NCBI GenBank assembly: GCA_026168455.1
Contig: CM047426.1
Span: 37,945,175 to 38,009,174 of the forward strand
Length of the DNA stretch: 64,000 bases
Direction: 5' to 3'
DNA from: Theocolax elegans
Lineage: Eukaryota > Arthropoda > Insecta > Hymenoptera > Cerocephalidae
Positions 18,007-47,902 of the stretch are shown piece after piece. Numbering within the stretch: position 1 is the stretch's first letter; each line of letters begins with the position of its first letter. A program made the translations under genes and the position numbers. The notes beneath the pieces are model-generated. The model was not told the origin of the DNA, made no database searches, and saw only the letters and a program-made list of their open reading frames with translations.

Positions 18007-18088
18007 CCCAAGTAAAAAAAATATATACAGACTACGTATGAATTGTGTCTAGATGACTGCATATAATCTTCATGGAAAAATGAACATA

Positions 18089-18262
18089 TATAATCTCTAT
18101 AAATACTATATGGAATATATATATAATCACTATAACTACTATATAGAAGATATATAATCTCTATAACAACTGTGTAGAATCTTTATTTCTACATCACTAC
18201 TATTTAGAACATATGTATAATCTTTATAACTACTATACATGATAAAAAATATGCTAAAAAAG
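18089..18262. repeat. Left subterminal repeat array of the BEN/TNP2 transposon
   Basis: Four to five imperfect ~35-bp units of ATAATCACTATAACTACTAT type. The array is bounded on the inner side by ATATGCTAAAAAAG and matches the reverse complement of 38982-39136. Confidence 0.7.
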
Positions 18263-18419
18263 AGATTTATTTTTAATAAATACAAAATTTATTACATTAA
18301 CAATTAAATAATCAAACAATTAAGTTGGCCAGCAATGCACAGAACAAATCCAAAATTAACATAAAAGGTGTCGAAAAATTTGTTTATTCAAATTTTTTTT
18401 TCTTTATGGCATTTAGTTC

Positions 18420-18529
18420 TTATGCACTTTTTATTTCCTGTAGTATTGATCGTACGCTAGATTTAATTTGCTGTCTGCTCTGAAATTCCCATTTTGGATT
18501 CTGATACGTTCCATATTTTTGTGCATAAG
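18420..18529 (-). CDS. BEN-domain gene, terminal exon
   Basis: The minus-strand acceptor ACAATAG lies just above 18529. The exon reads AYAQKYGTYQNPKWEFQ then SRQQIKSSVRSILQEIKSA to a TAA at 18420-18422. An alternative frame is also open, and the phase does not fit the donor CAG|GTAAAG of the previous exon; it fits if the donor is instead CTG|GTATAA near 18671. The splice into this exon is therefore unresolved. Confidence 0.5.
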
Positions 18530-18657
18530 CTATTGTATAAAAATATAATAATAAAAACCTTGTATTAAATTTCCGTGTAAATAATTTCATAAACGTACTT
18601 AAAATTGTGTCTACTGCTAGTGTGTATGTAATTTTGGACGAATTTCACCTCCTTTAC

Positions 18658-18805
18658 CTGTGCTTTTATACCAGTCAGTGTACACATCTGTAAGGCATTA
18701 TCGGTAAATATTCCTTTAAACAAGCCTCTAGCTAGTTCGGTGGATTTTTTTGAAATATTTTGTAAATTTGTTAAATAGATTTTTTTAATATAGATACCGG
18801 AATTA
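18658..18805 (-). CDS. BEN-domain gene, exon 10, 3' part (core of BEN domain)
   Basis: Minus-strand reading continues from 20823-20807 across the SINE insertion: NSGIYIKKIYLTNLQ, STELARGLFKGIFTDNAL and MCTLTGIKAQ, then a donor CAG|GTAAAG below 18658. The pattern of LI..SG.Y, LAR.L, F......C.LTG is the BEN domain signature, a four-helix DNA- and chromatin-binding fold found in insect repressors such as Insensitive and Elba factors and in some large DNA viruses and polydnaviruses. The domain reads open across the full exon once the insertion (one 12-bp target copy) is discounted. Confidence 0.75.
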
Positions 18806-20794
18806 GGTTTTTTTTTTATTATTTTAACGTCGCTCTTTTTATGCTTCTAAACCGGTGCTAATCAGCGACGGAGGTCATACGAGTCTTGGTGAACCCTGGC
18901 GAAAATAATCATATGATTATTCATGCGAATTATCGAGTGATTTATCAAGTGATTTATCGGGTGATTTATTGAGTGATATATCACTTGACGATTTGGCGCT
19001 ATTTATCACTTGATATATATATCACTAAACCAAAATATTTAAGAAATGTGCAAATGACTATTTCTAGATTCAAAATTCGATAATAAATAGTTAAAAAATT
19101 ATGTCAAGAAAACATAAAATAAATAAAAAAAAGTATTACACATTTTTCTGTTTATGTTAGTTATTCACCCATCCACTTATTAACCGCGGTCAATGCTGCT
19201 TAATTTTCATGATCAATCATTTCGCAGTCTATTCTCAATGCTACATTCACATAAGCAGTTACAAAGATAATAAAAACATATTTGTAGACATTTCAAAAAG
19301 CCCAGTTAGAATTTATTTTAATGGTATTAATTTTAATGGAATAAACATATTTTTAAAAATATGGACAATTTCATACAAGTTAAAATTTTAATGTACATAT
19401 CGGTACCATATTAGAAGAACAATATATATTTAGTAATATATTGCAGCAATTTCATATTAATTTAACTAGACTTTTTGAAACGTCTACAAATATGTTTTCA
19501 TTATCTTATTGTAACTGTTTGTGAATGTAGCAGATAGAAGATAGTAAATCATACAATAGAAAATACTAAAATCAGTATGGAAGTAATAATTAATTAAGTA
19601 ATATTTAACATTTCAAATACATATATTTCGTTAATCCAATTATTAAATATCAAAAAGTCCTTCTACAAAGGTGTAAAAATTCGCAAGTATGATGTAATTT
19701 CAATTACGTATTAACAATTCTTATCTTACTTTGTAAAAACTTACTGCAACAGAAAATACTGAAATCAAAATGCGGAATCATCAAATTTTCTGCTGAAAAA
19801 TTTAGTACATTTACTCAAAAAGTATACTACATAAAATTTATTTCATAATTATTAGCCCTGGCTTATCTTATATCAATAAATAAACAATATAATATTAATA
19901 ATTATATTCATTTGTGCATATTAATTTCTCCATATGTATTAAAACGTAAATATCTCTTTTTTATTGGTGTAAAATTATTTTTTGTATTTTTTTAAACCAA
20001 TAAAATAGAGATATTTACGTTTTAATAAATTATGGAGAAATTAATATCGTACAAATGAATGAATATTACTTCCATACTGATTTTAGTATTTTCTATTGCA
20101 TGATTTACTATCGTCTACCTGCTACATTCACAAGTTACAATAAGATAATGAAAACATATTTGTAGTCTTTTCAAATAGCCTAGTTTTGTCCATATTTTTA
20201 AAAATATGTTTATTCCATTGAAAATAATACCATTAAAATAAATTCTAACTGGGCTTTTTGAAATGTCTACAAATATGTTTTTATTATCTTTGTAACTGTT
20301 TGTGAATGTAGCATTGAGAATAGACTGAGAAATAATTGATCATGAAAGTTAAGCAGCATTGACCGCGGTTAATAAGTGGATGGGTGAATAACTAACATAA
20401 ACAGAAAAATGTGTAATACTTTTTTTTTATTTATTTTATGTTTTTTGACATAATTTTTGAACTATTTATTATCGAATTTTGAATCTAGAAATAGTCATTT
20501 GCACATTTCTTAAATATTTTGGTTTAGTGATATATCAAGTGATTTATCAAGTGATAAATAGCACCAAATCGTCAAGTGATATATCACTCAATAAATCACC
20601 CGATAAATCACTTGATAAATCACTCGATTATTCGCGTGAATAATCATATGATTATTTTCGCCAGGGAAGAAAGCACTTGTTGAAAATACATTCGCGCCAG
20701 TGGTGCTTGTATCAATCGGCCGGGGCCGGGAATCGAAACTGGGACCTCCAGATTACGAGCCCGACGCCCTACCGACCGAGCCATCGCAGGCCTC
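18806..20794 (-). mobile_element. tRNA-derived SINE inserted in a BEN exon, itself split by a MITE
   Basis: The insert is bounded by the exact 12-bp repeat ATACCGGAATTA (18794-18805 and 20795-20806). Minus strand: head GAGGCCTGCGATGGCTCGG (20794), box A TGGCTCGGTCGG and box B GTTTCGATTCC, then CAAGCACCACTGG. After the MITE at 18894-20666 the tail resumes with ACCAAGACTCGTATGACCTC and AGAAGCATAAAAAGAGCGAC, ending in an A-rich tract near 18807-18820. Same family as 63793-63959, 59031-59145 and 11318. Transcription would be by polymerase III. Confidence 0.82.
18894..20666. mobile_element. 1.77-kb snap-back MITE (CCCTGGCG ends, 2-bp AA duplication) carrying 5S-like segments
   Basis: The ends CCCTGGCGAAAATAATCATA and its inverse lie between AA dinucleotides. 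The SINE copy at 63880-63890 (GCTTTCTTTACCAAG) provides the empty site. The arms (18894-19400 and 20160-20666) are near-perfect inverted copies with a row of GTGATTTATC units near the ends. Each arm contains a 5S rRNA-like piece (19165-19210 and 20341-20388: GTTAAGCAGCATTGACCGCG, then GTGGATGGGTGA). A smaller inner hairpin lies at 19915-20045. The short frame at 19209-19391 is not coding. Confidence 0.78.
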
Positions 20795-20806
20795 ATACCG
20801 GAATTA

Positions 20807-20823
20807 AGTATTAACTCCTTCAC
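20807..20823 (-). CDS. BEN-domain gene, exon 10, 5' part
   Basis: After the acceptor ATTTCAG above 20823, the minus strand reads VKELI and joins through the ATACCGGAATTA target site to NSGIYIKK at 18805. Together this is the first helix of the BEN domain. Confidence 0.65.
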
Positions 20824-20921
20824 CTGAAATCATTTGTAATTAATTTTTTAGTAATATGCTCTAGTTTTATTTTTATTACTACAATTTTATCATAAAAAAT
20901 TTATTACATAAAATACAATAC

Positions 20922-20977
20922 CTTACCTCCATCCTTAAATGAATATTTTAAAGTCCATTCATCATGGTTGGTAGTTT
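20922..20977 (-). CDS. BEN-domain gene, exon 9
   Basis: Acceptor AATAATCAG lies above 20977. The reading TTNHDEWTLKYSFKDGGK ends at donor AAG|GTATTG below 20922 (an alternative donor G|GTAAGG lies at 20927). With the AAG|GTATTG donor the phase joins VKELI of exon 10 directly. Confidence 0.55.
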
Positions 20978-21103
20978 CTGATTATTTTAAAGTGAGTTGA
21001 GATGTGCACTAATGAAAAGATAAATTTTTATTTGAAATAGTTAAAACCTATATAAGCACTTATTTTAAAATCTACCTTTTTTGTTAAGTACTTATTGGTT
21101 TAC

Positions 21104-21236
21104 TGGTGGACGAAAGAACAGTTTGCTCATTTTCTTTATCATTTTCGTCAGAAAAATCGTACAGGTTATCGAGAATCGTGGAACATTTACGAACAGGTAC
21201 TGCATTTTTTTTAATTTTTCCCATGTCTTGGTGATA
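21104..21236 (-). CDS. BEN-domain gene, exon 8
   Basis: Acceptor ATCTATAG lies above 21236. Reading: YHQDMGKIKKNAVPVRK, STILDNLYDFSDENDKEN and EQTVLSSTS. The donor is A|GTAAAC near 21104 or A|GTACTT near 21092; both are phase 1 and match exon 9. Acidic, probably disordered linker of a multi-exon nuclear protein. Confidence 0.55.
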
Positions 21237-21328
21237 CTATAGATAATTATAAATTAAAAAGTACATTTTAATATGGTGATGTTATCATGATTCTATTTGT
21301 TGAGTTGTAAAATATTATAAAAATTTAC

Positions 21329-21406
21329 ATGATCATCAGTGTCAAACAAATCATTTTCTATACTCAAATTGAACTCACGAGATCTCTTTTTTACTTTAAG
21401 TACTTC
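21329..21406 (-). CDS. BEN-domain gene, exon 7
   Basis: The 78-bp phase-0 exon between TTTTACAG and CAT|GTAAAT reads EVLKVKKRSREFNL then SIENDLFDTDDH. It carries a basic cluster (KVKKRSR) that could be a nuclear localisation signal. Confidence 0.55.
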
Positions 21407-21485
21407 CTGTAAAAGAAGATTTATTATGTAATTTATGTATATATTTTAGACCTAAGTATCAATTTATTATATATTTGAGACATAC

Positions 21486-21599
21486 TTCAGTGGCACAATC
21501 ATTATCATTTATAGAATCCATCTTTTCCAAAATATTTAACTCTTGTGAGCATTTAGTATTCTTTATTTCTTGATAGCAATCTCCCTTTCGCATCATAGG
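21486..21599 (-). CDS. BEN-domain gene, exon 6
   Basis: The 114-bp phase-0 exon between TTTTACAG and GAA|GTATGT reads PMMRKGDCYQEIKNTK, SQELNILEKMDSIN and DNDCATE. No domain recognised. Confidence 0.55.
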
Positions 21600-21681
21600 C
21601 TGTAAAATTAATTTTATTAATTGTTAGTTTATAATTGTAATTATTTATTTATTTTTCAATAATAGTTAAAATTATTCATAC

Positions 21682-21780
21682 TATGTCGGCATCTTCGGCA
21701 AGAGATTCAATATCATCGTCATCATCTGAAATTACTGGCATTCCAAATGATCTATTTTTTGATATTCGATGAGGTGCACT
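21682..21780 (-). CDS. BEN-domain gene, exon 5
   Basis: The 99-bp exon between TTCTCAG and ATA|GTATGA reads SAPHRISKNRSFGMPVIS then DDDDDIESLAEDADI. The acidic run suggests a disordered linker. The phase does not match the only GT donor of exon 4, so either the true donor is different or the gene is decaying here. Confidence 0.5.
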
Positions 21781-21889
21781 CTGAGAAAAAATCATTCAAT
21801 TCAATTTACAAAAAGATAATGTGAATACAATCAACAGTTTTTATAAGAATTCTAAGAAAAACTGGTAGAAATTCAATAAATTCTCAAAC

Positions 21890-22160: not shown

Positions 22161-22378
22161 GGGGATGTCGTACCTTCATTTAAAATACACACTTACCGAT
22201 ATTTACTGATTTTTCAAATTTATCATTCAATTTGAATATTTGTTCAATTGTATGAATTGAGGAATATTCTACAATGTGTAACAATTGTGCGCGTGCTAAA
22301 AAAATTTAGAAAAAATGAAAATTAAAAACTATATTTGAAAAATCAATTACAAAAATCTGTAATTTGTACGGACTCCCC
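22161..22378. mobile_element. piggyBac-type MITE with TTAA duplication, inside a coding exon
   Basis: The 218-bp insert has TTAA on both sides (22157-22160 and 22379-22382) and inverted ends GGGGATGTCGTAC / GTACGGACTCCCC (GGGGA..CGTAC shared). TTAA targeting is the hallmark of piggyBac-like transposases (also of Kolobok). No coding capacity. It lies exactly inside exon 3 of the BEN-domain gene. Confidence 0.8.
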
Positions 22379-22730: not shown

Positions 22731-22953
22731 TGTTATGTCTTTATAAGGAATTAATAAAAGATGATCTAAGTAAGAGTAACTATTATTTATTATATTTATC
22801 AATTATAATCGTGGAAACTGTTAATAGCTAGGAGGGCTAACGTCAGCACTGGAGCGCGGTCAAACGGCGAGTGCCCACTCTCTTACATTTCACTAAGACG
22901 CTCACTAGTATACATAGGTGTCGCTGTTAGCGGTAACTCACGCATATACTACA
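22731..22953 (-). repeat. 3' LTR of the gypsy element
   Basis: 223 bp; differs from 27288-27510 at three bases (near 22844, 22857 and 22879). Bounded by the polypurine tract on one side and GGTTC on the other. Confidence 0.88.
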
Positions 22954-22986
22954 ATCCTCCTTCCTTAATTTACAACAACGTACACT

Positions 22987-23907
22987 TTAAAGATCGAGTC
23001 GAGTAGGTGGTTTTCTAATTCTCGATGATCTTCTAACATTCACAGGTTGCTCGGTAACAATATCTTTATTATTTCCGACAGTCGTATCGGTTGTTTCTAA
23101 TCTTTCGGTACCGCTAGGCGCGTTTACAATATGTTGATTATTTGCTGTCTCCTCGCAATCCGTTACAATTTTATCGGCGTTTGCCGCACTCTCTAACACT
23201 TGATGGGACGGTTGTTGCCCTATCGATTTCGTGATGCTTCTGTCGGAAGTTTGTGTTTGATTATCAAGTTTAAATTTACCGCTCTCGCGTCGTCGCAACT
23301 GGTCCACGTGCCGTTTCCAGATTTTACCCTCATCAGTGCGCACATTGTAAGATACCGGACTTACCTTCTCTATTATTTTCGCATCAGTCCACCTACCTGC
23401 TCCGTAATCTTTAGCTACTACACAGTCATTTTTATTAAAATTTACTTTGCGATTTCCTTTAAAATATATTTTCTGATCGTTTTGTTTTTTAATAACATTG
23501 TTTTTTGCCGATTCATGTAAAATACTCATTTTTGTTCTAAACTTCCTTCCTAGTTGTAATTCGGCCGGTGAGTACCCGGTGGTACTGTGATCTGTGCTAC
23601 GGTAATAAAATAAATATTTTTGTAAGGCCTCGTGCCTTGAGTTATTATCTTTAAGTAATATTTTAAATTTATCTTTAAAGGAACGCACTGCGTTCTCGGC
23701 TGCTCCGTTGGAAGCGGGGTGGTAGGGAGCCGTCCTAAAATGTTTGATGTTATTTTTACTCAAAAACATTTGAAAAGACTCTGAGGTAAAAGTAGGCCCG
23801 TTATCCGATACAATTATTTTACACAGACCCCAGCTCGCAAAATATTCTTTTAAAATCGCAATGGTTATATCGGCCGTAATACTACTCATTCTCTTACCTC
23901 TAGCCAT
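22987..23907 (-). pseudogene. gypsy pol, integrase C-terminal part
   Basis: Second half of the integrase catalytic core and its C-terminal region. SDNGPTF carries the second catalytic Asp and NGAAENAVR the Glu of the D,D-35-E triad. A basic tail follows (SSRIRKPPTRLDL). It overlaps the upstream frame by about 20 bases. The protein is split by a single-base deletion near 23895-23900 (EVREMSSI expected). Integrase inserts the cDNA into host DNA; this copy is broken. Confidence 0.85.
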
Positions 23908-25217
23908 TTCGAGTACGCGTCGGTAATAATCAAATACATAAAACCGTTTATCGATCCACAGAAATCTAGGTGAAGCCGATCGCTAGGTGATTCTGGCCAA
24001 GGCCAGACGTGTAGCTGGCTTTTGCGAGGGTTTCCACCCTCTGATAGACACAATTTACATGACTTAGCAACGTTCTCTATATCCCGATCTATGCCTGGCC
24101 ACCACACGTAAGATCTAGCGATCGCCTTCATCTTTACTATACCCACGTGTACCCCATGGATATTTTTTAATATATTCGGTCGACAGCTAAGTGGAATAAT
24201 TAGTCTATGACCCCTCATAATACATTCGTCTTCCGCATAGAGTTCCTCTTTACAATTTTTAAAGGCACGAATTTTATCGCTAATCTCGCTAGGCCACTCG
24301 GATCGCACGTATTCGTATACTAATCTTAATGTCTCGTCTTTACTCGTTTCGAACTTTATTTTTTCTATGTCTAACGTTCCTATGTCGTCGCATACATAAT
24401 TCAAGTACGAGTATTCTCCCTTAGCATCTGTAATTACCTGATTTGTTTTGAATTCGTGTACTAAAACTCGAGAGAGTGCATCCGCTGGGCCGTTGTCCTT
24501 ACCTTTTATACTTCGAATTTCGAAATCGTACCCAGCGAGAAACACTGCCCATCTCTGTAGTCTACTAGCTGCCATTTGGGGAATACCTTTCTTTGGTCCG
24601 AAAATGAAAAATAATGGCTTATGATCCGTCTCTAAAACAAACTTTCTTCCGTAAATATATTCGTGGAATTTTTTAATTCCGAAAACTAACGCTAGCGCCT
24701 CGCGATCTAGTTGCGAATAATTTCTTTCGGCGGGCAATAATACCCTCGCCGCATACGCAATTGGACGTTGCGTGCCGTCGGAGTACACGTGCGATAAAAC
24801 TGAGCCTAATCCCCACGGTGACGCGTCGCATGTGACTTTAATTGGAATTTCGGGATTATATGGTCCAAAAAGTTCGTGCGAAATCAACCCTTCTTTTACT
24901 TTTTTAAATGCTTCCTCACAGTCTTTGGCCCAATGCCATTTAATTCCTTTCCTTAACAATTTGTATAAAGGGTAGATCACCTTCGCAAAATTTTTTATAA
25001 AAGGTGCGACATAATTAACTATGCCCAGGAAAGACTGGAGTTCTTTAATGTCTGATGGTGCTTTCATTTTAACTATCGCTTCTATGCTTTCCTCCGATAC
25101 ACTGAGACCGGATTTGCTAAGCTTGTACCCCAAGAATTTAATTGAGTCTCTCGCAAATTCGCACTTTTCTCGCCTCACCGTGAGACCTTTCTCTTTAAAT
25201 ATGGATAGCACTTTAAA
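23886..25217 (-). pseudogene. gypsy pol: RT thumb, RNase H, integrase N-terminal part
   Basis: Starts after an in-frame TGA in the RT domain. RT connection (REKCEFARDSIKFLGY), RNase H-like domain (TCDASPWGLGSVLSH and LETDHKPLF), then the H2C2-type integrase zinc region (HGVHVGIVKMKAIARSYVWW then CKLC) and the first catalytic Asp (LHLDFCG). Ends at a frameshift after YSKWLEVRE. Length and order are normal for Ty3/gypsy. Confidence 0.88.
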
Positions 25218-26024
25218 TCACTTTAACGATATGAAAACATCGTCAAAATATACTGCTGTACCTGATAAACCGTTCACTACTTTTTCCGTTTCACCTTGAA
25301 AAAGTGCTGCCGCGGACGCGATACCGTAACTTAACTTATTGTATTGGTATAGACCCTTATGTGTCGAAATTGTCGTCAATTTTATAGATTCATCATCCAA
25401 TTCGACCTGTTGGTATGCGTTCGCGAGGTCTAATTTAGAAAAAACAGTTCCGTTACCCATTTTATCTCTTATTTTCGCGATGCGCGGAATCGGGTATCTA
25501 TCGATCACGAGGTTAGGATTGACTGTGATTTTATAGTCACCACAAATGCGCACTTGCCCGTTTGTTTTTAACACCGGCACTATGGGGGTGCTCCAGTCGC
25601 TATGGTTTACTCTCTCTATGATCCTTTCCCTGGTCAACCGATCCAATTCCGCCTCCACTCTATTACGCATCGCGAACGGAACTTGGCGCGGCTTGAAACA
25701 AACCGGTACTGCATTTTCTTTAAGCTTGAGCGTGAATTTCCCTGCTTTGTATAAACCTAACTCATTTGAAAATACCTCCGGAAATTTTTTTGCGATGAAT
25801 TCAGTTAACTCTGTTTCCTTAACTGCGTTAATACTTATGTCCGATTTAAGATTACTAACCTTAAATATATTGAGCGCTCGAATCCATGGTCTGCCTATAA
25901 TAGGAGTTTCACTTTTGCCCGGCAACACGAAAATTTCACCTTTATATTGCTTGTCGTTAAACTTGATTTTAACCTCTAATACCCCTTTAGGAACAATATT
26001 CGCACCGTCATACGCTTGGAAACT
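25218..26024 (-). pseudogene. gypsy pol: protease end and reverse transcriptase fingers/palm
   Basis: Continues the gag frame past a TGA at 26025-26027. GRPWIRALNIF closes the protease; the RT motifs are STPIVPVLKTNGQVRICGDY, FSKLDLANAYQQV and the active-site YFDDVF. The frame ends TCGTTAAAGTGA directly after the active-site motif, and the segment between YFDD and REKCEF looks shorter than usual, so a small deletion may accompany the stop. In-frame with both neighbours. Confidence 0.88.
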
Positions 26025-27257
26025 TCATGAGGTTAATTTTAGTTTAATGTTAGCTAACTCGCTCGCCGATCTGTAAAATTGATCGGAAATGGCCGATATG
26101 GCCGAGCCGGTATCAATTTCGCATTTCCACCGTTTACCTTCTACCTCGATGTTTACATTGTACGGTTCTTTCGCGTCGCCTTTATTATCTATTTTCTTAC
26201 TCGACTCGTCTAACACGAAAATATTATCGAATCTGTCACTCATGGCTTCGACCTCTTCTACGAAATTTTGTTTTCCTCCAGCATTGTATACGTTTCTCAC
26301 GCTCTCACTTTCCTTACCCTTCGCCGAATTCTTGTTACGTTTGTTATTCTTACAGACACTACGTAGGTGCCCTACCTTGCCGCACGCATTACATTTATAA
26401 CTCTTGTACTTACATTCTGACGCTATATGGTTCGGCTTACCGCAACAGAAACATTTTGGCGAACCGTTACTTCTACTCGCTTGTTTATTAATAGATACTT
26501 TCTTATCTGCTACTAGGTTGACCGCCTCCGCCGTGGATCCTTGCATCCTGGCCGCGTCCCGACTTGCCGCTTCCACCGAGGTTGCCAGCTCGATTGCTCT
26601 ATGGTAGGTTAAATTGGTCTCCCCCAGTAACCTTTTCTTAATGGCGTCGCTCTCGACACCCCATACAAACTGGTCTCTCAGGTTGGTGTCCAGGTTGCTG
26701 CCGAACTCACAATATGTCGACATTTTTTGTAGATCTGCTACGTATGCTTTTATATCTTCGCCCTTCTTCTGTCTGCACTCTTTAAATTTGTACCTTTCCA
26801 TGATGGTACTTGGCGCTGGTTGTAGATGGTTTTTCATTATTTTTGCCAATTCCGAGAGTGGCATGTGAGCAGGCGCTCTTGGTGTGCATAAGCTACGTAA
26901 CAACGCGTAGACTTCCTTGCCCAGTAATGTGATAAATAACGGAACAAATTTTTTCTCTGGGACCTCGTTAGTAATACAATACTGCTCGAGTCTCTCAAAC
27001 CACAACGACCAATCTTCGCCTATCGAAAATTCTGCTATACTACCGATTGTACCTCTTATTATCGGCATCTGCGCCTGTTGCGTTTGAGGTTGATTCGCGC
27101 CATTGCCCCAATCTGCTAGCTGCTTGGCTGCTATTAATTTGTCACCTTCTTCTTTCACCTTCCTTTGTGCATCTGCAAGTCTTTTTCTTTTTTCTTCCAC
27201 CAGTGCTTCTTTCTTTTCCAACGCTTTTATCCTCTCATTCCACTCTTCTGTATTCAT
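26025..27257 (-). pseudogene. gypsy gag with zinc knuckles and aspartic protease start
   Basis: 410-residue frame from ATG at 27257. N-terminal coiled-coil-like Lys/Glu-rich segment (residues 6-50), capsid region (about 80-240), two CCHC zinc knuckles (CFCCGKPNHIASEC at 269-282 and CNACGKVGHLRSVC at 289-302), and the retropepsin motif DTGSA at 382-386. Gag packages the RNA into particles. The protease follows in the same frame with no separating stop in the design; the terminal TGA at 26025-26027 interrupts the protease and is taken as a nonsense mutation, although programmed readthrough cannot be excluded. Confidence 0.85.
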
Positions 27258-27287
27258 TTTATAACCGTTTCAATCCTCGTCGCCAAT

Positions 27288-27510
27288 TGTTATGTCTTTA
27301 TAAGGAATTAATAAAAGATGATCTAAGTAAGAGTAACTATTATTTATTATATTTATCAATTATAATCGTGGAAACTGTTAATAGCTAGGAGAGCTAACGT
27401 CAGCACTGGTGCGCGGTCAAACGGCGAGTGCCCACTTTCTTACATTTCACTAAGACGCTCACTAGTATACATAGGTGTCGCTGTTAGCGGTAACTCACGC
27501 ATATACTACA
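27288..27510 (-). repeat. 5' LTR of the gypsy element
   Basis: 223 bp; partner of 22731-22953. Followed downstream (toward lower coordinates) by AT and the TGGCGACGAGG primer-binding-like site. Confidence 0.88.
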
Positions 27511-27671: not shown

Positions 27672-27870
27672 GATTACTAGAAATGATGTGTCCGTCATAT
27701 AAGCGACCTTTAGAACTATCCTCAGGATACAAAAACTTAATTTTTTCTCTCGGCAATAACTGCGAATCACAATTTGTATCAATAACAATAGATCTTTTGT
27801 ATACAATACACATTGATGTGTCACTGCAGTCGATTAAATATTGCATTTCCAAATTCTTAATGCAATGCAT
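27672..27870 (-). CDS. BEN-domain gene, first coding exon
   Basis: ATG at 27870, donor ATC|GTAAGTAAG at 27672. 66 codons: MHCIKNLEMQYLID, SDTSMCIVYKRSIVID, LLPREKIKFLYPEDSSKG, RLYDGHIISSNR. The 199-nt length leaves one base (C), completed by GT in exon 2. A compact N-terminal module precedes a long charged linker and the C-terminal BEN domain, a layout I associate with multi-exon insect BEN proteins (memory only). It points away from the TNP2 gene, leaving a shared promoter region of about 950 bp that now contains a MITE. Confidence 0.6.
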
Positions 27871-28818
27871 TTTTGCAATTAAAACATTTGTTATATTTTA
27901 ATACGACTATTTTAAATTTTTAGTTGTTTATAACATTTTATTGTCTGCTATATGCTTAACGATTCATCGATTCAGTCAATGTGAACAATTATACACGGCA
28001 TATTTCAGTGCAAATAACTGTCAAATTTGCGATTACATCCCAGACGGAAATTTATTTTTCCAGAAAGAGCTAAGAAAAGCTAATAAATTTTATAATGAAT
28101 TTATAATATGCAGATTTTGGACTCTGTTAATAGTTAGTAAGAATTTCTAACTTTTATTAGCTCTTCTTAGCTTTTGCTAGATTTTATTAGCTTTTAGGTT
28201 TTTTTCAAAAGCAAAAGAAATTTGCGAGTTTAAAAAAGTTAATAACTACTAATAACTTTTTTAAATTATTATATACAATAAATAAGTATTTAGAATTTTT
28301 ATGAATATTTACCAATAGCAATCTTTTATTAATAGCTTTTGTTTTTTTGCATACATCACTTATAAACAGCTAAAAACAGTTAAATATAGGAAAATTCAAC
28401 AGTTACTATTAGTGTCATTTTATCGTTTTTCACGATATTTTCGAAATGCAAAAATCTAATAAAACCTAATAAAGCTTAGAAATATTTACAAAATTTTAAA
28501 AACAACTAATAAAATCTTATAAACATTACCAAATTTTTTAAACTATTACTAGAATCCAAAATCCGCACTTTATAAAGTGTTATGAAAATCTAATAAAAGC
28601 TAATAACTTTTATTAAGTATTTATAAACATTATTCGCATATGATTATTTCCGCTAGGGATCATATTTAAAACATGAAATCAAGAAAAACTTATAAGTATT
28701 ACGTGAAAGATAATGAAATGGTTAGAGAATATTTTATTAATAAATAAGAAAATATATTTGTTAATTTTATTAATTGACAGAATAAATTACTTAATTATTC
28801 TTATATCCTTGTTAGCCC
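27871..28818. promoter_or_regulatory. Divergent intergenic region between the BEN and TNP2 genes
   Basis: The two genes are transcribed away from each other, so both promoters should lie here. No TATA box was assigned. Most of it is occupied by the MITE at 28039-28658. Confidence 0.35.
28039..28658. mobile_element. 620-bp snap-back MITE, relative of 18894-20666
   Basis: The ends CCCAGACGGAAATTTATT and (inverse) CCCTAGCGGAAATAATCATATG lie between AT dinucleotides. The arms are inverted copies (GCAGATTTTGGACTCTGTTA versus TACTAGAATCCAAAATCCGC). The right end shares AATCATATG with the larger MITE at 18894. It contains many AGCTAATAA-like units. Confidence 0.65.
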
Positions 28819-30025
28819 ATGGACATTCCTTTGAGTACTTTAAGAAGATGGAATCAAAATGACAATGTTAATCAAAATATGCATTTAGATTCACCGATAG
28901 AAGAGTTTTTTAACGAAGATGATAACAGTGAGATAATTATGTAATAATAACCCGTTGCTTGTTTATTTCTTTGTAATTTTTATATTGTTGATTTTTTCAT
29001 TAAATATTTAATACACATTATAAACTAATAATTTTGTAGTGTTTGTTTACTGAGGATAATTATGATTCGGATACATCAAACACTACAGCAGAGGATTGTT
29101 TTCTGAATGATGATAATTTTATGGAAACAAATAATGAAAAAGACTGGATAAAACAAGTATTGTACAACTCAGCAACAGTGACTGTTGGCGAAGCGGTGAA
29201 TTTGATATTAGATTTTTTTTTTTTAATAACTTAACAATGGAAGGATTGAAAAATTTATGAATATTATTAGATCAGTTATTACCAAAACCGCATAATCTCC
29301 CGAGAACAAAATATAAACTTTTAAAATTATTGGAAACTTTAACTCCTTTTGATGAAAATGTTAAAAAACACCAATTTTGTGCTGATTAATAGGTCTTTCA
29401 GAATCATCTGCATCGACAGCAGTATGCCACAATTGTGGTAACAATCAAAATTATGATTTATTTATTGAATATAATTTACAAAAGCTTATCCAAGATGCTT
29501 TCGAAGTCAGGGATCTAAAGAATCTAATAGATGAGCATAATATGGAAATTGAAAAAACTGAAAAAAACTATATATACGATTTTACGACAGCAAGAGAGTA
29601 TAAAAAACTAAGAGAAGGTCCTCTTAATGGTAAATATGACGTGTGTTTATTATGGAATACTGATAGAGCACCAGTTTCGCAGAATTCAAATGGACAAATA
29701 TGGCCAGTATAGGCTAAAATTTTAAATATACCAGTAAATAAAAGAAAATCCTACCAATTTATAGTTGGTTTATATTATAGTACTAGTAGCAAACCTCCAA
29801 TGAATTCTTTCTTGAAGCCGTTTGTTGAATCTTTGAAATCTTTGTATAATGTCGGAATTGAATGGTTTAATAAAGTCAACAAATTCTATCGAGTGCAGTA
29901 AAGTTTTTGGACCAGTTGCTACATTAGATGCTCCAGCAACAGCTACTGTACAAAACATAATGCAATACAATGGTGCATGTGGTTGTACACTATGTGAGCA
30001 TCCTGGTGTTTGCTGTTCGACAGGG
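28819..30025 (+). pseudogene. TNP2-type transposase, N-terminal part (degenerate)
   Basis: The readable path uses several frames. A possible first exon at 28819-28940 is MDIPLSTLRRWNQ.., followed by a short intron. 29040-29215: FTEDNYDSDTSNTTAED, then SATVTVGEAVNLIL. 29420-29790: a cysteine pair CHNCGNNQNYDLFI, KNLIDEHNMEIEK, LLWNTDRAPVSQNSNGQIWP, STSSKPPMNSFLKPFVESL. 29900-30025: SKVFGPVATLDAPATATV, MQYNGACGCTLCEHPG. NTD..P and the DAPA..VQN..QYNG.YGC..C motif are typical of the TNP2/DUF4218-like transposases of CACTA/EnSpm elements and their animal relatives. It has at least two stops and two frameshifts. The protein continues at 37638 after the solo LTR; the AGGG duplication marks the break. 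Confidence 0.75.
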
Positions 30026-30104
30026 TGTGAGGTGGTAAATACCTCACATAATAAGATAATATTAAAAACCTTGTCGTCGTCCAGTACCTGAAACATAAAT
30101 ATAT

Positions 30105-31757
30105 GGGTGGTTCTCTGTAACATCGAAGATGAAAAAAATAAATATTGCTATAACTGTGGGAATATGTTTTAGAGGTATCCAGTAGTTCTCCTGAATTTTT
30201 TCAGATTTTTTCTGGGCCATTATTTTAAGTTACAGAGAATCAAAGTTGACATTTTAGCACTTTTTTGCATTATATGCCCATTTTCATGAATTTTTAGCTC
30301 CCAGGGGATGCATTTTTCACTAAAAACATAAGTATGACTTTTTTTGTAAAATTTTCCGAACTTTTCATTAAAAATACTTTTAAAGACATAAATGTATGCT
30401 GTCACACTCTTGTAAGCCATTTAAACCTTAAATAGTGAAAATCAGCAATTCTGCTCCGGACTCTGGTAACCTAATACTGTCTAAAAGATGTCTTTTTATA
30501 GTCAGAAACTGCCTAAAAATTTCCAGATGGGTCTAAATCATTAAGATCACTTATGGTCAAAATATCCGGGAAAAGTGCCCGAAATATTAATAGAAATGTA
30601 TATTTGTTGCCTTATAACGATGAATCTATTAGCATGATCATTGCAAAAAAATTTGTGCACTTACCTTGGAGTGGTAGAAAAGTATCTTTATTTGTTTCAG
30701 TATCCATCTAATCCCCTGTAAGATGCTAAAAATACAAATATTATTATAAAATTATAAAAAATTATTTTTTAAACATTTATAATGCTGAATTTTTAGTTTT
30801 ACATCCCTTACAAGAATTATAATACTAATCTGAAGGATTACTATAAATATATAAACATCATTATTACAATAACTGAATATACGTATTTAATACAAAAGAT
30901 ATATAAATAAATCGGATATATAATTGTAATGAATAATATGATAACGTGACAGTGACAAGTTTGTGAAATCTAAACAATGTATTGCTGAATAATAATAATA
31001 ATAATGTTGATACTTTTATAGTAATCCTTCAGATTAGTATTATAATTCTTGTAAGGGATGTAAAACTAAAAATTCAGCATTATAAATGTTTAAAAATTAA
31101 TTTTTTACAATTTTATAATAATATTTGTATTTTTAGCAGCTTACAGGGGATTAGATGGATACTGAAACAAGTGAAGATACTTTTCTACCACTCCAAGGTT
31201 AGTGCACAAATTTTTTTGCAATGATCATGCTAATAGATTCATCGTTATAAGGCAACAAATATACATTTCTATTAATATTTCGGGCACTTTTCCCGGATAT
31301 TTTGACCATAAGTGATCTTAATGATTTAGACCCATCTGGAAATTTTTAGGCAGTTTCTGACTATAAAAAGACATCTTTTAGACAGTATTAGGTTACCAGA
31401 GTCCGGAGCAGAATTGCTGATTTTCACTATTTAAGGTTTAAATGGCTTACAAGAGTGTGACAGCATACATTTATGTCTTTAAAAGTATTTTTAATGAAAA
31501 GTTCGAAAAATTTTACAAAAAAAGTCATACTTATGTTTTTAGTGAAAAATGCATCCCCTGGGAGCTAAAAATTCATGAAAATGGGCATATAATGCAAAAA
31601 AGTGCTAAAATGTCAACTTTGACTCTCTGTAACTTAAAATAATGGCCCAGAAAAAATCTGAAAAAATTCAGGAGAACTACTGGATACCACTAAAACATAT
31701 TCCCACAGTTATAGCAATATTTATTTTTTTCATCTTCGATGTCACAGAGAACCACCC
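30105..31757. mobile_element. 1.65-kb near-perfect palindromic element
   Basis: The ends GGGTGGTTCTCTGTAACATC and GATGTCACAGAGAACCACCC are the termini of two arms of about 750 bp each, joined by a loop near 30900-31010. AT lies on each side. A 66-codon frame occurs in both arms (minus 30220-30420, plus 31442-31642) because the arms are the same sequence; it has no independent support as a gene. Confidence 0.8.
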
Positions 31758-31899
31758 ATAAATAATATTAATATAGGTAATGAACCAAGGGTACTATTAT
31801 TGGAACAACTTACCTAGCACAGGTAATGCCTGTGCATTACCTGTGTATAAATGTCGTTGATACCTCCTTCTGGGTCAAGGGAAAACTCCTACATGGCTA

Positions 31900-33385
31900 C
31901 CCGATAAGCGCACTTTTGAAAAAAAGAATTCTTTAAGAATTAACGAATGTCTGCGATAAATAATTCTATAAGTATTAAATAAGTATCTGTAAAGTATTCT
32001 TTATGATCCAAAATTTGAATAATATATATAAAATTATTGATTAAATGAAAATTATTCTATGTACACTATATAAGTATTTAAAAAGTCTTTTTTAATTAAA
32101 AAAAAAGTTAAAAAATAATATTCTTTTAATTAAAGTACGCCTTATAAACGCCGTAAAAATATTGAAAAAGAGTTCTTTTTCAATTCTTTTTTTGTCTATA
32201 GGTTATATATTATTAAATATATTTAAATAATTCGTTTATTGATTGTTATGTAATAAATTCATTATGTCACTTTATAGTGAAATATTCTAATAAATACTTA
32301 TGCAGACTTGCACCAATTATTAATATATGACTTTTAATAAATGGTTATAGCATTCTATCTAAAATTACTCTGCAGTATAGTAAACTTTATGGAATTTTTC
32401 TGATTCTCAATTATAGGTTAAGTTGCCTATTATTGTACTTTTATACAACTATAATTAACGTATTTGACAAATCTGAATCGACAGGAATGTGCTTACTTTA
32501 CTTACAAACCGACTAAATCATTAGTTTATTAGTATTAATAACGGAATAATGCAATAAATATTAATAAAATTCCGGAATTATTCAATCGGGGTGTAACAAA
32601 TAAGAACGATTCGAAGTAAAATATAAAAACGTGTTGATGGCGCAAGCGGTAAGATTTCCGACTTTGACGCAGAGGGTCCCAGGTTTGAATCCCGACGTCC
32701 GGTGCAGATTTTTTTCGTTATTTAATGTATATTCTATTTAATTTCAGAAAATATATATTTAATAAATTAAAATGTTTAAAATGCTAAATAAAATAGAATA
32801 AAATAGAAAAATTTGACCCGGCAAGCCGCTACAAAATAAATTTTTATATGGGTTTTTTCACTCTTTGAAGAGTGAATAAATAATACGAAAAGTGATGTTT
32901 AACTTGAAGCCGACTGCTGCACTTTTGACTAGTCAAAGAGTGAAATATCACTCCATTCGAGTGAAATTTCACTCTTCAAAATTTAGAGAGTGATTTATTA
33001 CAGAAATCTCAAAAAAGAATTGAAAAATAGTTGTCCATGGACATTTGTTAATTCTAAAAGAACTCTTTTTCAATTCTTTATTTGGGTTGTTTTTATGGGG
33101 AATGACTTTTAGAAGTATAAAAGAATACTTTTCAAATATTTAATTATTTTTTTTGTAATAAAAGATTTCTTTTCACTTCTTTAATATTTCTTTCATGGGA
33201 TATACCATTCGTAAAATTTCATTCGAATTTAAAAAATTCTTTATTAATACTTAAAGCATTACAATATACGGGACATTCGTTATATTTATAAGTTATTGTA
33301 AAGAATTCTTTTTAAATTCTTAAAAAAAATAGAATTTAAAAAGAATTCTTTAAAAAATATTATTTATTTCTTTGTCCTTATCGGG
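31900..33385. mobile_element. 1.49-kb TIR element with TA duplication and repeated AAAGAATTCTTT motifs
   Basis: Inverted ends CCCGATAAG.. / CTTATCGGG lie between TA dinucleotides (31898-31899, 33386-33387). A dozen or so AAAGAATTCTTT-like boxes crowd both ends. Inside are a tRNA-like segment (32636-32705) and a CACTCTTTGAAGAGTGA palindrome cluster (32850-32998). No transposase. The element sits in the solo LTR and was later included in the tandem duplication. Confidence 0.7.
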
Positions 33386-34411
33386 TATGTAGCGACTCCT
33401 TGGCACTGGCTCCTGCTGGTCCTGGGCATCGTTACCTGTAGGGAAGATTAGAAATTAGAATGGTGACGTAATTGTTTAAACTAAATAAGGAAGAGTTTGT
33501 AATAAATGTAGTGTGTAGGATAGGTTAGAGGTAAGGTTGACATGTGGTATTAGAGAGGTTAAGAAAAAGAAAGTAAACAATGCATAACAACAAAGCTTGA
33601 GCCATTCTCATCACCGAATAGTATGAATAGATAAAAGGAAAGGATGGAAATAATGGAATTAAATTGGTTTGTTTTATATGTCGGAGAGGAAGAGAGAAGA
33701 ATAAACAAATAACACTTACCATAAACGTCGAACTAGTTGAAGAAGAGAAAGTGGTTACTCGCTGTTGGTGATGGAAGATGATGGAAACGCCGATCCGCAC
33801 AAACAACACCTCCGGATGAAGGAAACTCCTTCTCTCGTAGACGTCGTCGCCGTGAAGCCGCACCAGGTTCGGATCGCCGCACAACCGCCGAGTATTTGTA
33901 AACACGAAAGTGAGAGAGACGGAGTGAGAACAGACTCGCGCGCGAAGCAGTACTGCCGTATGCGTGTACATAGGCGGCGGCGGAGAGGGGGGAGCTCACT
34001 CGCTTGCACCACGAGGACTACCGAGAGAGCGCGCAGGCGCAACGAAGCGCGGGACTCTCTCGGACTCAACTCCCGTGCGTAAGAGAGAGAAAAGAAGAGT
34101 GCGAATTGCACAAGTGGAGGCGCTAACCCAGCTAACACTTGGCACTGACGATGAGATTCGCACCGCTAAATTTGAATGGGTAGTACGGAAGGAATGAAGG
34201 TGGCAGTAGGATCGATAGCACCTGTTGACATGCCAATAATGGGGAAAACGGGTGCCATATTTAAATGAAGGAAGTTGATAGCACCGCGGGTCGGCTTTGA
34301 CGGAAATTTAGGAAAAGGAAGAAGAAAGCGGAAGAAGGAGGAGAGATTCATTACTAGCTTATCCGTTAAGTGAGACGCCAGTGCATTTACGAAGTTCAGA
34401 TATTATTTTGA
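31938..34411 (+). repeat. Tandem duplication, unit 1 (~2474 bp)
   Basis: Repeated almost exactly at 34412-36885. It begins inside the 31900 element and ends inside LTR sequence, so the duplication is a genomic rearrangement and not a transposon copy. Confidence 0.88.
32636..32705 (+). repeat. tRNA-like segment
   Basis: GATGGCGCAAGCGGTAAGA (box A) and AGGTTTGAATCCCGACG (box B) at tRNA spacing. The flanking stems are not convincing, so it is probably tRNA- or SINE-derived. Confidence 0.5.
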
Positions 34412-36885
34412 AAATTAACGAATGTCTGCGATAAATAATTCTATAAGTATTAAATAAGTATCTGTAAAGTATTCTTTATGATCCAAAATTTGAATAATAT
34501 ATATAAAATTATTGATTAAATGAAAATTATTCTATGTACACTATATAAGTATTTAAAAAGTCTTTTTTAATTAAAAAAAAGTTAAAAAATAATATTCTTT
34601 TAATTAAAGTACGCCTTATAAACGCCGTAAAAATATTGAAAAAGAGTTCTTTTTCAATTCTTTTTTTGTCTATAGGTTATATATTATTAAATATATTTAA
34701 ATAATTCGTTTATTGATTGTTATGTAATAAATTCATTATGTCACTTTATAGTGAAATATTCTAATAAATACTTATGCAGACTTGCACCAATTATTAATAT
34801 ATGACTTTTAATAAATGGTTATAGCATTCTATCTAAAATTACTCTGCAGTATAGTAAACTTTATGGAATTTTTCTGATTCTCAATTATAGGTTAAGTTGC
34901 CTATTATTGTACTTTTATACAACTATAATTAACGTATTTGACAAATCTGAATCGACAGGAATGTGCTTACTTTACTTACAAACCGACTAAATCATTAGTT
35001 TATTAGTATTAATAACGGAATAATGCAATAAATATTAATAAAATTCCGGAATTATTCAATCGGGGTGTAACAAATAAGAACGATTCGAAGTAAAATATAA
35101 AAACGTGTTGATGGCGCAAGCGGTAAGATTTCCGACTTTGACGCAGAGGGTCCCAGGTTTGAATCCCGACGTCCGGTGCAGATTTTTTTTCGTTATTTAA
35201 TGTATATTCTATTTAATTTCAGAAAATATATATTTAATAAATTAAAATGTTTAAAATGCTAAATAAAATAGAATAAAATAGAAAAATTTGACCCGGCAAG
35301 CCGCTACAAAATAAATTTTTATATGGGTTTTTTCACTCTTTGAAGAGTGAATAAATAATACGAAAAGTGATGTTTAACTTGAAGCCGACTGCTGCACTTT
35401 TGACTAGTCAAAGAGTGAAATATCACTCCATTCGAGTGAAATTTCACTCTTCAAAATTTAGAGAGTGATTTATTACAGAAATCTCAAAAAAGAATTGAAA
35501 AATAGTTGTCCATGGACATTTGTTAATTCTAAAAGAACTCTTTTTCAATTCTTTATTTGGGTTGTTTTTATGGGGAATGACTTTTAGAAGTATAAAAGAA
35601 TACTTTTCAAATATTTAATTATTTTTTTTGTAATAAAAGATTTCTTTTCACTTCTTTAATATTTCTTTCATGGGATATACCATTCGTAAAATTTCATTCG
35701 AATTTAAAAAATTCTTTATTAATACTTAAAGCATTACAATATACGGGACATTCGTTATATTTATAAGTTATTGTAAAGAATTCTTTTTAAATTCTTAAAA
35801 AAATAGAATTTAAAAAGAATTCTTTAAAAAATATTATTTATTTCTTTGTCCTTATCGGGTATGTAGCGACTCCTTGGCACTGGCTCCTGCTGGTCCTGGG
35901 CATCGTTACCTGTAGGGAAGATTAGAAATTAGAATGGTGACGTAATTGTTTAAACTAAATAAGGAAGAGTTTGTAATAAATGTAGTGTGTAGGATAGGTT
36001 AGAGGTAAGGTTGACATGTGGTATTAGAGAGGTTAAGAAAAAGAAAGTAAACAATGCATAACAACAAAGCTTGAGCCATTCTCATCACCGAATAGTATGA
36101 ATAGATAAAAGGAAAGGATGGAAATAATGGAATTAAATTGGTTTGTTTTATATGTCGGAGAGGAAGAGAGAAGAATAAACAAATAACACTTACCATAAAC
36201 GTCGAACTAGTTGAAGAAGAGAAAGTGGTTACTCGCTGTTGGTGATGGAAGATGATGGAAACGCCGATCCGCACAAACAACACCTCCGGATGAAGGAAAC
36301 TCCTTCTCTCGTAGACGTCGTCGCCGTGAAGCCGCACCAGGTTCGGATCGCCGCACAACCGCCGAGTATTTGTAAACACGAAAGTGAGAGAGACGGAGTG
36401 AGAACAGACTCGCGCGCGAAGCAGTACTGCCGCATGCGTGTACATAGGCGGCGGCGGAGAGGGGGGAGCTCACTCGCTTGCACCACGAGGACTACCGAGA
36501 GAGCGCGCAGGCGCAACGAAGCGCGGGACTCTCTCGGACTCAACTCCCGTGCGTAAGAGAGAGAAAAGAAGAGTGCGAATTGCACAAGTGGAGGCGCTAA
36601 CCCAGCTAACACTTGGCACTGACGATGAGATTCGCACCGCTAAATTTGAATGGGTAGTACGGAAGGAATGAAGGTGGCAGTAGGATCGATAGCACCTGTT
36701 GACATGCCAATAATGGGGAAAACGGGTGCCATATTTAAATGAAGGAAGTTGATAGCACCGCGGGTCGGCTTTGACGGAAATTTAGGAAAAAGGAAGAAGA
36801 AAGCGGAAGAAGGAGGAGAGATTCATTACTAGCTTATCCGTTAAGTGAGACGCCAGTGCATTTACGAAGTTCAGATATTATTTTG
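34412..36885 (+). repeat. Tandem duplication, unit 2 (~2474 bp)
   Basis: Second unit. The breakpoint has AATTAA microhomology (TTTAAGAATTAACG at 31933 versus TTGAAAATTAACG at 34408), suggesting replication slippage or end-joining. Few differences from unit 1 (for example TATGCGTG at 33960 versus CATGCGTG at 36433), hence recent. Confidence 0.88.
35109..35178 (+). repeat. tRNA-like segment, copy in the duplicated unit
   Basis: Same sequence as 32636-32705. Confidence 0.5.
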
Positions 36886-37637
36886 AAAATTAGTTGATTA
36901 CATAGATTATTGTTGTAGCGAGGATAGATATTGTTGAAAGAAGAAGGAGTTGATTTAGAAAGTTTATTGTCCGATAAAGGATTATTTTGAGAGGAAGTCA
37001 AGGAAACATTGTTGGAGGATTTCCGAGATATTGACTCGCGTGCGGTAAGTGGACTGCCCGCCGGTCACGTTTTATTTCGTTGATACATATATCGTTAGTT
37101 TGTGGATTATTTCTGGTATCGCGGTTTTGATTTAATGGAGGATTAATACCCCAATCATTGATTATGAGATTTTAAATAAATAAATTGTCATAAATTGCGA
37201 TCTAAAATTAGTGTTATAATTTTTCCTATGTTAGTTAAAAGTTCGCGACTTCGTCTGTAAGATTTGAATTTGTAAAGATTATATTATGGATAAAAGTGAA
37301 GTAAATAAATAGTTAATTACTTCCTTACACGGACGATTAAATTTATTCCTCTTTGTCTGATTTCAATTATTCCCCTGTGGCTGTGATTAATTATTTAGGA
37401 AAGGATTTGTTAGTCCCTCCATTTTCCCGTCGGCGAGACAAGGATCCACGGCACAGGTAAGAAGTTCGTGCACGTGCTGAGTCGGCCATTTTGATAGGAC
37501 GAAGAACGAATATTAATTACCCCATTTATTTAAACAAATACACACATATATATCGAGATTATTATTATTATTATTATCTGTTGTACGTGGTGTACGGGAT
37601 TCCCCACATTTATGTAGGAAACGCTACGTCACAAGGG

Positions 37638-38855
37638 TTAGGACACGCGTGTGTATCCTATTTTGCCAAATGAACCTCCACTTCGTACGAAAAATAGTAT
37701 TTTGGAGCAAGCTAATGAGGTAATACGTAATGATTTACATCATTTGAATGGAGTAAAAGGAGTTTCGATTACAGCAACGATACCTTACCTTGATTGTGCT
37801 TCATCTTTTGTCGTCGACCATATGCATGCTATATTGTTAGGAGTTGTTAGAATGCTTATTAGTTTATGGTTTGATGGAAAGAATAAGAAAAAAGAATTTT
37901 TTATTAGAAATCAAGTTCAAAATCAGATAAACAAAGAAATAGAATTAATTGTTGTACCAGATTTTGTAATTCGACTTCCAGTTATTCTCAAGTATCGGAA
38001 ATATTTAGAAGCGTCACAATTAAGAGATTTTTTACTTTTTTATTTTCCCAACATATTAAAAAATCGATTGCCCGAAAAATATTATAGACATTTCTTGTTA
38101 TTAGCACATGGAACGAGAATTTTGTTACAAGAAAAAATTCATCTACAACAAATAAATGTTGCAGAGTCATTGCTCGGTTTATTCGCACAAAATATTGAAA
38201 GTTTATATGGATTAGAAAAATGTACCTTTAACGTTCATCAGCTAACACATATGGCATACTTCATGAGAAAATGGGGCCCTTTATGGACATGGTCTGCTTT
38301 TTTTTTAAAGACGCTATAGGACACTTGAAAAAATTGAATCATGGACCTAACAAAGTGGATATGGAAATTATAAACACTTTAAATCTGTTAAATGTGCGTT
38401 ATATTTTAAAAGATTTATTAAAATTCAATATTGACAATGAAAATGAATGCAGTATGCAATCAGTACTAGAAAAACCTATAAAACACAATTTAAATATACA
38501 TGAATTAGAAGTGCTACAAATGTTTAGTATTACAGAATCTATTGTTATTAATAATAATATAACTCAAGTTTTTACTAGAGCTGTCATAGGAAAAGAAATA
38601 TTTACATCATCACTATACAAACGACAGAATAAGCGACAAAATTCAATTGTAACCTGGAATTCTAAAACACAGTTCGGCATTATTCAGTTTTTCATTCAGG
38701 CAAATAATTCCGCTTTTGCTATTGTAAGAGAGTATGTGCGCAATTATAAAGAAAAATATACGATACATAATCAAATTAAATTAGATCTACATGATAAAGT
38801 TTTATTTATGGATCACTATGTGTGTTTAATGCCAAATGCACACGAAAGACGTTAA
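37638..38855 (+). pseudogene. TNP2-type transposase, C-terminal part
   Basis: After the AGGG site the sequence reads GHA, then in the next frame VYPILPNEPPLRTKNS, VKGVSITATIPYLDCAS, VVDHMHAILLGVVRMLISLW, LLLAHGTRILLQ, CTFNVHQLTHMAYFMRKWGPL, WTWSAFF. A frameshift at the T run near 38300-38308 is followed by DAIGHLKKLNHGPNKVD and an open C-terminal part to a TAA after PNAHERR. DHMH..LLGV and the HxLTHL/H-like blocks are hallmarks of the TNP2/DUF4218 transposase family (RNase H-fold, cut-and-paste). About 400 residues are nearly intact, with only two frameshifts, so the inactivation is fairly recent. The gene ends 130 bp before the right subterminal array. Confidence 0.82.
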
Positions 38856-38981
38856 TCTGTGTAATGTATGTATGTACGAGTGTTTATACCGTTTGGTTTT
38901 ATCAATAAAATAATTTTATGTGGAATCTCAATTACTTAATTATTAATGTAATAAATTTTGTATTTATTAAATATAAATCTT

Positions 38982-39136
38982 TTTTAGCATATATTATATA
39001 AACTTTATAACAACAGTATATAAGTCATATAAAGATTATGTATGTTGATTAAATATATATTCTATATAGTAGTTATAAATATTATATATATTATATACAG
39101 TAGTTATAGTGATTATATATATTCTATATAGTAGTT
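38982..39136. repeat. Right subterminal repeat array of the BEN/TNP2 transposon (truncated)
   Basis: Inverse of 18089-18262: TTTTTTAGCATAT, then units of TATATAGTAGTTATA and GATTATATATATTCTATAT. Cut at 39136 by the gypsy LTR. Confidence 0.7.
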
Positions 39137-47900: not shown

Positions 47901-47902
47901 CG

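Follow-up and report, generated by a model that had tools for sequence, protein, structure and literature searches.

Plant CACTA transposons of the Spm/En type encode TNPA, which binds repeats close to the ends and is needed along with TNPD (PMC2613891, PMC1636069; here and below, statements from the literature refer to the available portions of the cited articles). Within the same superfamily, the TRC group is marked by CCC ends and a 2-bp target duplication (PMC1636069). BEN is a type of DNA-binding domain known from chromatin factors and viruses (PMC4574769). In the present study, a gene for a BEN-domain protein and a gene for a TNP2 transposase were found side by side in the genome of the insect Theocolax elegans, within a stretch of 64,000 nucleotides that is hereafter called the window (C2:37945175-38009174). 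Positions 18007-39141 of the window are a dead, insertion-riddled copy of a two-gene DNA transposon of ~6.1 kb. All genome work was carried out on this one genome (658 Mb, 1277 contigs). Taken as a whole, the evidence makes it probable that this is a TRC-group transposon whose two divergent genes move as a unit and whose BEN protein is the DNA-binding partner of the element.

Structure of the element in the window

The element comprises the following features:
18007-18312: left terminal inverted repeat, with outer end CCCAAGTAAAAAAAATATATACAG, holding the array 18086-18237; its start is also the start of copies L009, L010 and L011 elsewhere in the genome
18420-27870, minus strand: BEN gene, broken, with ~9 exons read by eye, start codon near 27870 and stop at 18420
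28816-30026, plus strand: first (5') piece of the gene for the TNP2 transposase, carrying a frameshift and stops
37634-38855, plus strand: second (3') piece of the same gene, in which an internal segment near 38796 is deleted
38931-39141: right terminal inverted repeat, containing the array 39053-39141, its outer ~90 bp lost

An earlier interpretation, the sequence-only reading, had described two divergent genes between mirrored arrays, with the 3' end of each gene close to its array, and this layout was confirmed. Tandem Repeats Finder (TRF) reported a left array at 18086-18237 (period 33, 4.8 copies, score 157) and a right array at 39053-39141 (period 31, 2.8 copies, score 134), and positions 38931-39140 match 18312-18098 in inverted orientation with 77.6% identity over 219 positions (E 1e-39). 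The left array is nested in the longer terminal inverted repeat, whose first bases, CCCAAG, lie at 18007, and the stop codons of both genes are found ~180-200 bp inward of the respective arrays. The right end is truncated, since ~90 bp present in intact copies are lost beyond 39141, and the target duplication of the window copy is unreadable for this reason. In comparison with L009, whose element measures 6091 bp, the window copy has five insertion sites. Of its 21 kb, ~15 kb lie in these insertions and 5.9 kb are what is left of the element. One of the insertions interrupts the BEN-domain exon, which lies at ~20824-20795 and resumes at 18811-18565. The window copy is an inactive relic.

Copies and families in the genome

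A whole-genome DNA search with the 3' half of TNP2 as query gave 41 matches, six of them long and with 95-100% identity, and 16 stretches of 9.9 kb were fetched around genome TNP2 matches. Five other close copies form family 1 together with the window element. Three of these, L009, L010 and L011, align with it from base 18007 on, possess both ends and carry a BEN gene to which that of the window is 92-98% identical in nucleotides; in L013 a decayed part of the BEN gene remains, and L012 gave no BEN match in a fetched stretch that covers the BEN side partly. The suggestion that BEN and TNP2 form a mobile two-gene unit was thus supported, and the condition that would have spoken against it, TNP2 copies with the same arrays but never a BEN gene, did not hold for these copies. 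Family 2 (L014-L018) has ~70% nucleotide identity in TNP2, family 3 consists of L021, L023 and L024, and family 4 of L022, whose BEN reading contains a stop. In families 2, 3 and 4 the same two genes are divergent, with the geometry of family 1, and the same holds more weakly for family 5. In the stretches fetched around L019 and L020, whose TNP2 is akin to that of family 2, BEN was not seen. In L009-L011, L014-L018, L021 and L023, both genes lie between inverted repeats of ~270-400 bp; L024 has an inverted pair of 78% identity, and no inverted repeat of the element was found in the fetched stretches of L012, L013, L019, L020 and L022.

Additionally, the seven loci with the weakest matches of the family-3 BEN query were fetched (L025-L031). 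Five of them, L027-L031, also carry a divergent TNP2 gene, and no TNP2 was found in the fetched stretches of L025 and L026. The transposases of L028-L031 are closest to scallop and tick proteins (31-35% identity) and that of L027 to the protein P0003 (25%). L028-L030 constitute family 5, with the ends CCCGCGTAAAA (CCCGCGT). The inverted repeats of this family are 99.7-100% identical over the outer 364-367 bp and 99.5-99.6% identical over 442-502 bp further in, and such near-identical ends suggest that its copies moved recently.

Linkage of the BEN and TNP2 genes

BEN matches at E <= 0.001 numbered at least 100 with the family-3 query (among the best 150 of 242 candidates) and 87 with the family-1 query. 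After five short rows at the 3' ends of listed copies had been dropped, 36 of the 41 TNP2 DNA matches formed the linkage set. A divergent BEN match, upstream and on the other strand within 20 kb, was found at 26 of these 36 loci, in 19 cases at a distance of 3.8-5.2 kb, whereas random placement would yield 0.05 of 36, with a maximum of 3 in 20000 trials.

A second set was obtained with the TNP2 protein as query. It comprised 147 rows among the best 150 of 1440 first-look candidates, three having been dropped because they continue or overlap others (C3:77322199, C5:37483627 and C5:37484549), and it was split into close and distant matches at 41% identity, a value of our own choice. Among the TNP2 matches listed with at least 41% identity, 62 of 86 have a divergent BEN match upstream within 25 kb. 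Considered from the other side, 63 of 101 BEN matches pair with a listed TNP2, and the number rises to 68 when the five fetched weak-BEN loci with TNP2 (of seven) are added. The genome appears to be very rich in TNP2 genes, and a good number of the matches listed for the protein query have stop-free frames of 750-830 aa.

Termini, target duplications and group membership

Families 1-3 share the ends CCCAAGTAAAA (CCCAAGT), the left end of L015 being the exception. When target duplications were examined, as the sequence-only reading had proposed, a 2-bp duplication was found in every one of the 12 copies that allowed both CCC termini to be read, a count from which L015 was left out. The duplications are AA in each of the three copies of family 1 (L009-L011); TC, TG, TA and TA in family 2 (L014 and L016-L018); TG and AA in family 3 (L021 and L023, respectively); and TG, AT and CA in family 5 (L028-L030). 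When the two flanks of L021 are joined, the resulting sequence matches a repeat unit nearby, which represents the empty site, and the alignment is best with exactly 2 nt removed; therefore, the insertion at that place comprised the entire unit, BEN included. Thus, in several separate families, a CCC...GGG unit flanked by 2-bp duplications carries both TNP2 and BEN.

The marks of the TRC group that were tested are all present in the element: a Transposase_21 (PF02992) protein, CCC inverted repeats, a 2-bp duplication and the motif [LVI]DX[LM]HX3LG, which reads VVDYMHAILLG in L009 and VVDHMHAILLG in the window. The original description of the element as CACTA-like holds at the level of the superfamily and not for the Spm/En type, which was rejected because the ends are CCC rather than CACTA and the duplication is of 2 bp instead of 3 bp. 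Owing to these ends and duplications, the element is assigned to the TRC group of the CACTA superfamily and not to the plant CACTA elements.

The transposase and the BEN protein

For the TNP2 protein of the window, 27 related database proteins were found with E <= 0.001 among 7830 candidates, the best with 52% identity, and a relative from the wasp Eretmocerus hayati shares 40%; none was found in viral and genome contig collections. PF02992 is precomputed for 11 of the 27 relatives, and the L009 protein scores 25.6 bits against this model (E 8e-6), slightly below the cut-off of 28.6. TNP2 frames are open in L009 (767 aa), L016 (775 aa), L021 (766 aa) and L029 (806 aa), and broken in L010 (592 aa).

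In the BEN protein, an N-terminal domain of ~60 aa is followed by a linker of poor conservation and a C-terminal BEN domain. Against the Pfam BEN model (PF10523, cut-off 23.2 bits), family 3 reached 34.1 bits and family 2 reached 29.9 bits, both above the cut-off, and family 1 reached 23.4 bits, barely above it, in one of the splice models, all of which are approximate and were drawn up by eye. The window exon alone remained below both relevant cut-offs (DUF4806 19.8 bits, BEN 14.0 bits). Therefore, the claim that the window holds a BEN-domain gene stands through its relatives elsewhere in the genome (L009, L015 and L021) and not through the window exon itself. The relation of the family-5 protein to BEN was recognized by tblastn with the BEN queries of families 1-3. 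DUF4806, which is a BEN subtype according to PMC11075544, was considered in place of BEN, being preferred by the window fragment and by a short family-1 piece, and was rejected, as families 2 and 3 prefer BEN. A sequence search of PDB with the BEN domain retrieved BEND6 (E 0.0015) and NACC1 (E 0.03 and 0.04). With the N-terminal domain, the sequence search of PDB gave no relative (best E 0.3), and the structure model of this domain reached a mean predicted local distance difference test (pLDDT) value of 45. No BEN relatives were found in the viral contig collection.

Between families 1, 2 and 3, the ratio of nonsynonymous to synonymous substitution rates (dN/dS) was 0.19, 0.27 and 0.29 for the BEN domain, 0.22 and 0.30 for the N-terminal domain and 0.19 and 0.11 for TNP2, one pair being saturated in each of the latter two cases. 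Such low values indicate that BEN and TNP2 were both kept as proteins during the divergence of the families, and the BEN domain is, on this rough measure, under purifying selection between them.

Proposed role of the BEN protein and rival explanations

The BEN protein would be expected to have a TNPA-like role, namely the binding of subterminal DNA on behalf of the transposase. In the mechanism that we envisage, cutting and joining at the CCC termini would be the task of TNP2, and the BEN protein would be a sequence-specific DNA-binding partner that the element itself supplies. The BEN domain at the C terminus of this protein may bind subterminal inverted-repeat DNA, that is, the 31-bp array detected by TRF in family 1 and, in family 5, AAACTTT/AAAGTTT, which is clustered and strongly repeated subterminally (a level reached in 0 of 300 shuffles). 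Such binding could bring the ends together, regulate the element or both, as TNPA does in maize Spm/En. The array, which had been taken as a defining feature, proved to belong to family 1, and it was not found in families 2 and 3, where the single palindromes TATATA and ATGCAT are nominally enriched, without correction.

Several observations weigh against this interpretation. Synonymous sites are near saturation between families, which makes the dN/dS values rough, and the BEN exon of L009 versus L010, with very few changes, gives 0.81. The family-1 BEN domain scores 19.6 bits in the full model and 18.4 bits in a short piece for which DUF4806 scores 19.2, and the BEN-like domain of family 5 has no Pfam match. 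Two protein-database searches with the BEN models returned no homologue, an absence that says little because the gene has many short exons. Among the closer TNP2 matches listed, 22 of 86 lack a detected BEN and two of 86 show another geometry, and 60 of the 61 listed below 41% identity have no BEN with the queries used; these 60 either do not have a BEN gene or have one too divergent for the queries. A thirteenth copy, L015, has the altered left end GGCAAGT and flanks that do not match (TC/GT). Regarding the subterminal repeats, k-mer enrichment is weak in family 1 (46, 87 and 16 of 300 shuffles reach it), and by the k-mer maximum families 2 and 3 have no outstanding repeats, a finding that is unfavourable to a simple model with one motif.

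The missing repeats in families 2 and 3 are also compatible with the main rival, in which the element is the same and BEN is an anti-silencing or chromatin factor, either a cargo that counters host repression or a means of steering expression, and does not belong to the transposition machinery. BEN proteins are known as chromatin or transcription factors (PMC4574769), and the TET/JBP dioxygenases of some fungal DNA transposons are thought to evade silencing (PMC12730594), which lends this explanation some plausibility. However, the like position and spacing across families and the subterminal repeats of families 1 and 5 are also in keeping with a role in the machinery, and the two roles are compatible, given that TNPA has both (PMC1636069). 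We consider an anti-silencing function in place of a machinery role conceivable, if somewhat improbable. The divergence of the family-5 BEN, together with the distant TNP2 matches that lack a detectable BEN, would also be expected if several TNP2 lineages had captured host BEN genes independently and no ancestral second gene had existed. Nevertheless, the BEN genes of families 1-4 are likely of one origin, since they share their layout as well as both domains, N-terminal and BEN, and independent capture appears unlikely. That BEN belongs to the host and TNP2 elements chanced to insert next to it, or that it is simply a chance neighbour, may be suggested by the large number of BEN genes (at least 100 matches) and by the 38 of 101 matches without a divergent TNP2 among the matches listed. 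Yet five of the seven fetched weak-BEN loci, unlinked in that count, do have a divergent TNP2, linkage exceeds the random expectation as described above, and on several contigs, at separate sites, BEN is enclosed by the inverted repeats and by the target duplications. Chance neighbourhood was rejected on the linkage counts and the duplications around BEN-containing units, and an origin of this kind is extremely improbable. A TRC-group unit with BEN as DNA-binding partner is therefore the explanation that we prefer.

Insertions in the window copy and flanking repeats

The insertions in the window copy are the following:
18812-20794: insertion splitting the BEN exon, later than the element, with a nested palindrome of ~1.77 kb at 18894-20666
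22161-22378: 218-bp insertion within a BEN exon, with TTAA at each end
22731-27510, minus strand: long terminal repeat (LTR) retrotransposon of the Ty3/gypsy type in BEN exon 2, with reverse transcriptase, RNase H and H2C2
28039-28658: 620-bp insertion between the two genes, with the ends CCCAGACGG...CCGCTAGGG (CCCAGACGGAAAT...ATTTCCGCTAGGG), CCC...GGG, and flanks AT/AT
30027-37633: 7.6-kb composite insertion in TNP2, consisting of a palindrome (30058-31801) and a tandem duplication (31907-36892)

The palindrome at 18894-20666 has the ends CCCTGGCG...CGCCAGGG, i.e. CCCTGGCGAAAATAATC...GATTATTTTCGCCAGGG, with AA at each flank, and looks like a non-autonomous CCC-ended (TRC-like) element nested in the larger one. 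The retrotransposon has LTRs of 223 bp with 99% identity, a 5-bp duplication (GGTTC) and adjoining open frames. In the composite insertion, the arms of the 1.74-kb palindrome are 92% identical, and the tandem duplication has a 2.47-kb unit with 99.3% identity. To the right of the transposon, gypsy-like protein pieces at 41261-48872, with an integrase core at 48033-48872, apparently constitute a second, broken LTR element, and to its left a 2.3-kb tandem duplication (99.7%) occupies 5395-10037, a repeat-rich stretch with internal palindromes.

Comparison with known systems

In agreement with the sequence-only reading, which knew of no such element, no BEN gene in a transposon was found in full-text searches of the open-licence PMC literature (Repbase and Dfam being outside their scope), and the available portions of PMC4574769, PMC5704228 and PMC11075544 on BEN and of PMC7642931 on DUF4806 describe no transposon-borne BEN gene. 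In plant CACTA elements, the transposase has to be joined by a DNA-binding protein that the element also encodes, and BEN, if it occupies that place, would be the animal counterpart. To our knowledge, the second protein of plant CACTA elements is not a BEN protein. If the interpretation is correct, the apparently recent copies would offer an experimental system, the element would be a possible source of the expansions of BEN-type genes in invertebrate genomes, and annotation would need caution, as many predicted BEN genes may be mobile. In two Hydra species, 69 and 54 DUF4806 entries occur beside many transposases (PMC7642931), and Hydra has CCC-ended EnSpm elements (PMC4298943). It could be speculated, as a doubtful extension, that BEN is the missing TNPA equivalent of animal CACTA/TRC elements in general, and that swarms of BEN/DUF4806 genes, such as those of Hydra and perhaps the bracovirus BEN genes, are transposon-borne or transposon-derived.

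Among described systems, bracovirus BEN genes resemble the present gene in having an N-terminal conserved domain (68 aa there, ~60 aa here), a C-terminal BEN domain and introns; the likeness is one of layout rather than of compared sequences, and those genes are viral virulence genes located in wasp-borne circles (PMC4574769). The fungal DNA transposons that carry TET/JBP genes, EnSpm elements included, are likewise members of the CACTA superfamily with a chromatin-related second gene, but theirs encodes an enzyme acting on methylated DNA and not a DNA-binding BEN protein (PMC12730594). Plant CACTA elements, Spm/En and Tgmt*, combine a tnp2 transposase with an element-coded protein that binds subterminal repeats, and differ in their CACTA ends, their 3-bp duplication and the production of the second protein by alternative splicing (PMC2613891). 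Spongebob_HMa / EnSpm-4N1_HM of Hydra shares the CCC ends, the 2-bp duplication and a length of ~5.8 kb, whereas the available text of PMC4298943 mentions no BEN gene and its authors did not find the exact transposase. The closest likeness in the transposase and the termini is with the TRC elements themselves (SmTRC1 of Schistosoma and the TRCs of Tribolium and Aedes; DeMarco et al. 2006, PMC1636069), which share Transposase_21/TNP2, the CCC ends, the 2-bp duplication and the [LVI]DX[LM]HX3LG motif; they differ in that no BEN gene appears in the available text of that article, where the other proteins of SmTRC1 are reported to have no relatives, and in the element of T. elegans the second gene encodes a BEN protein.

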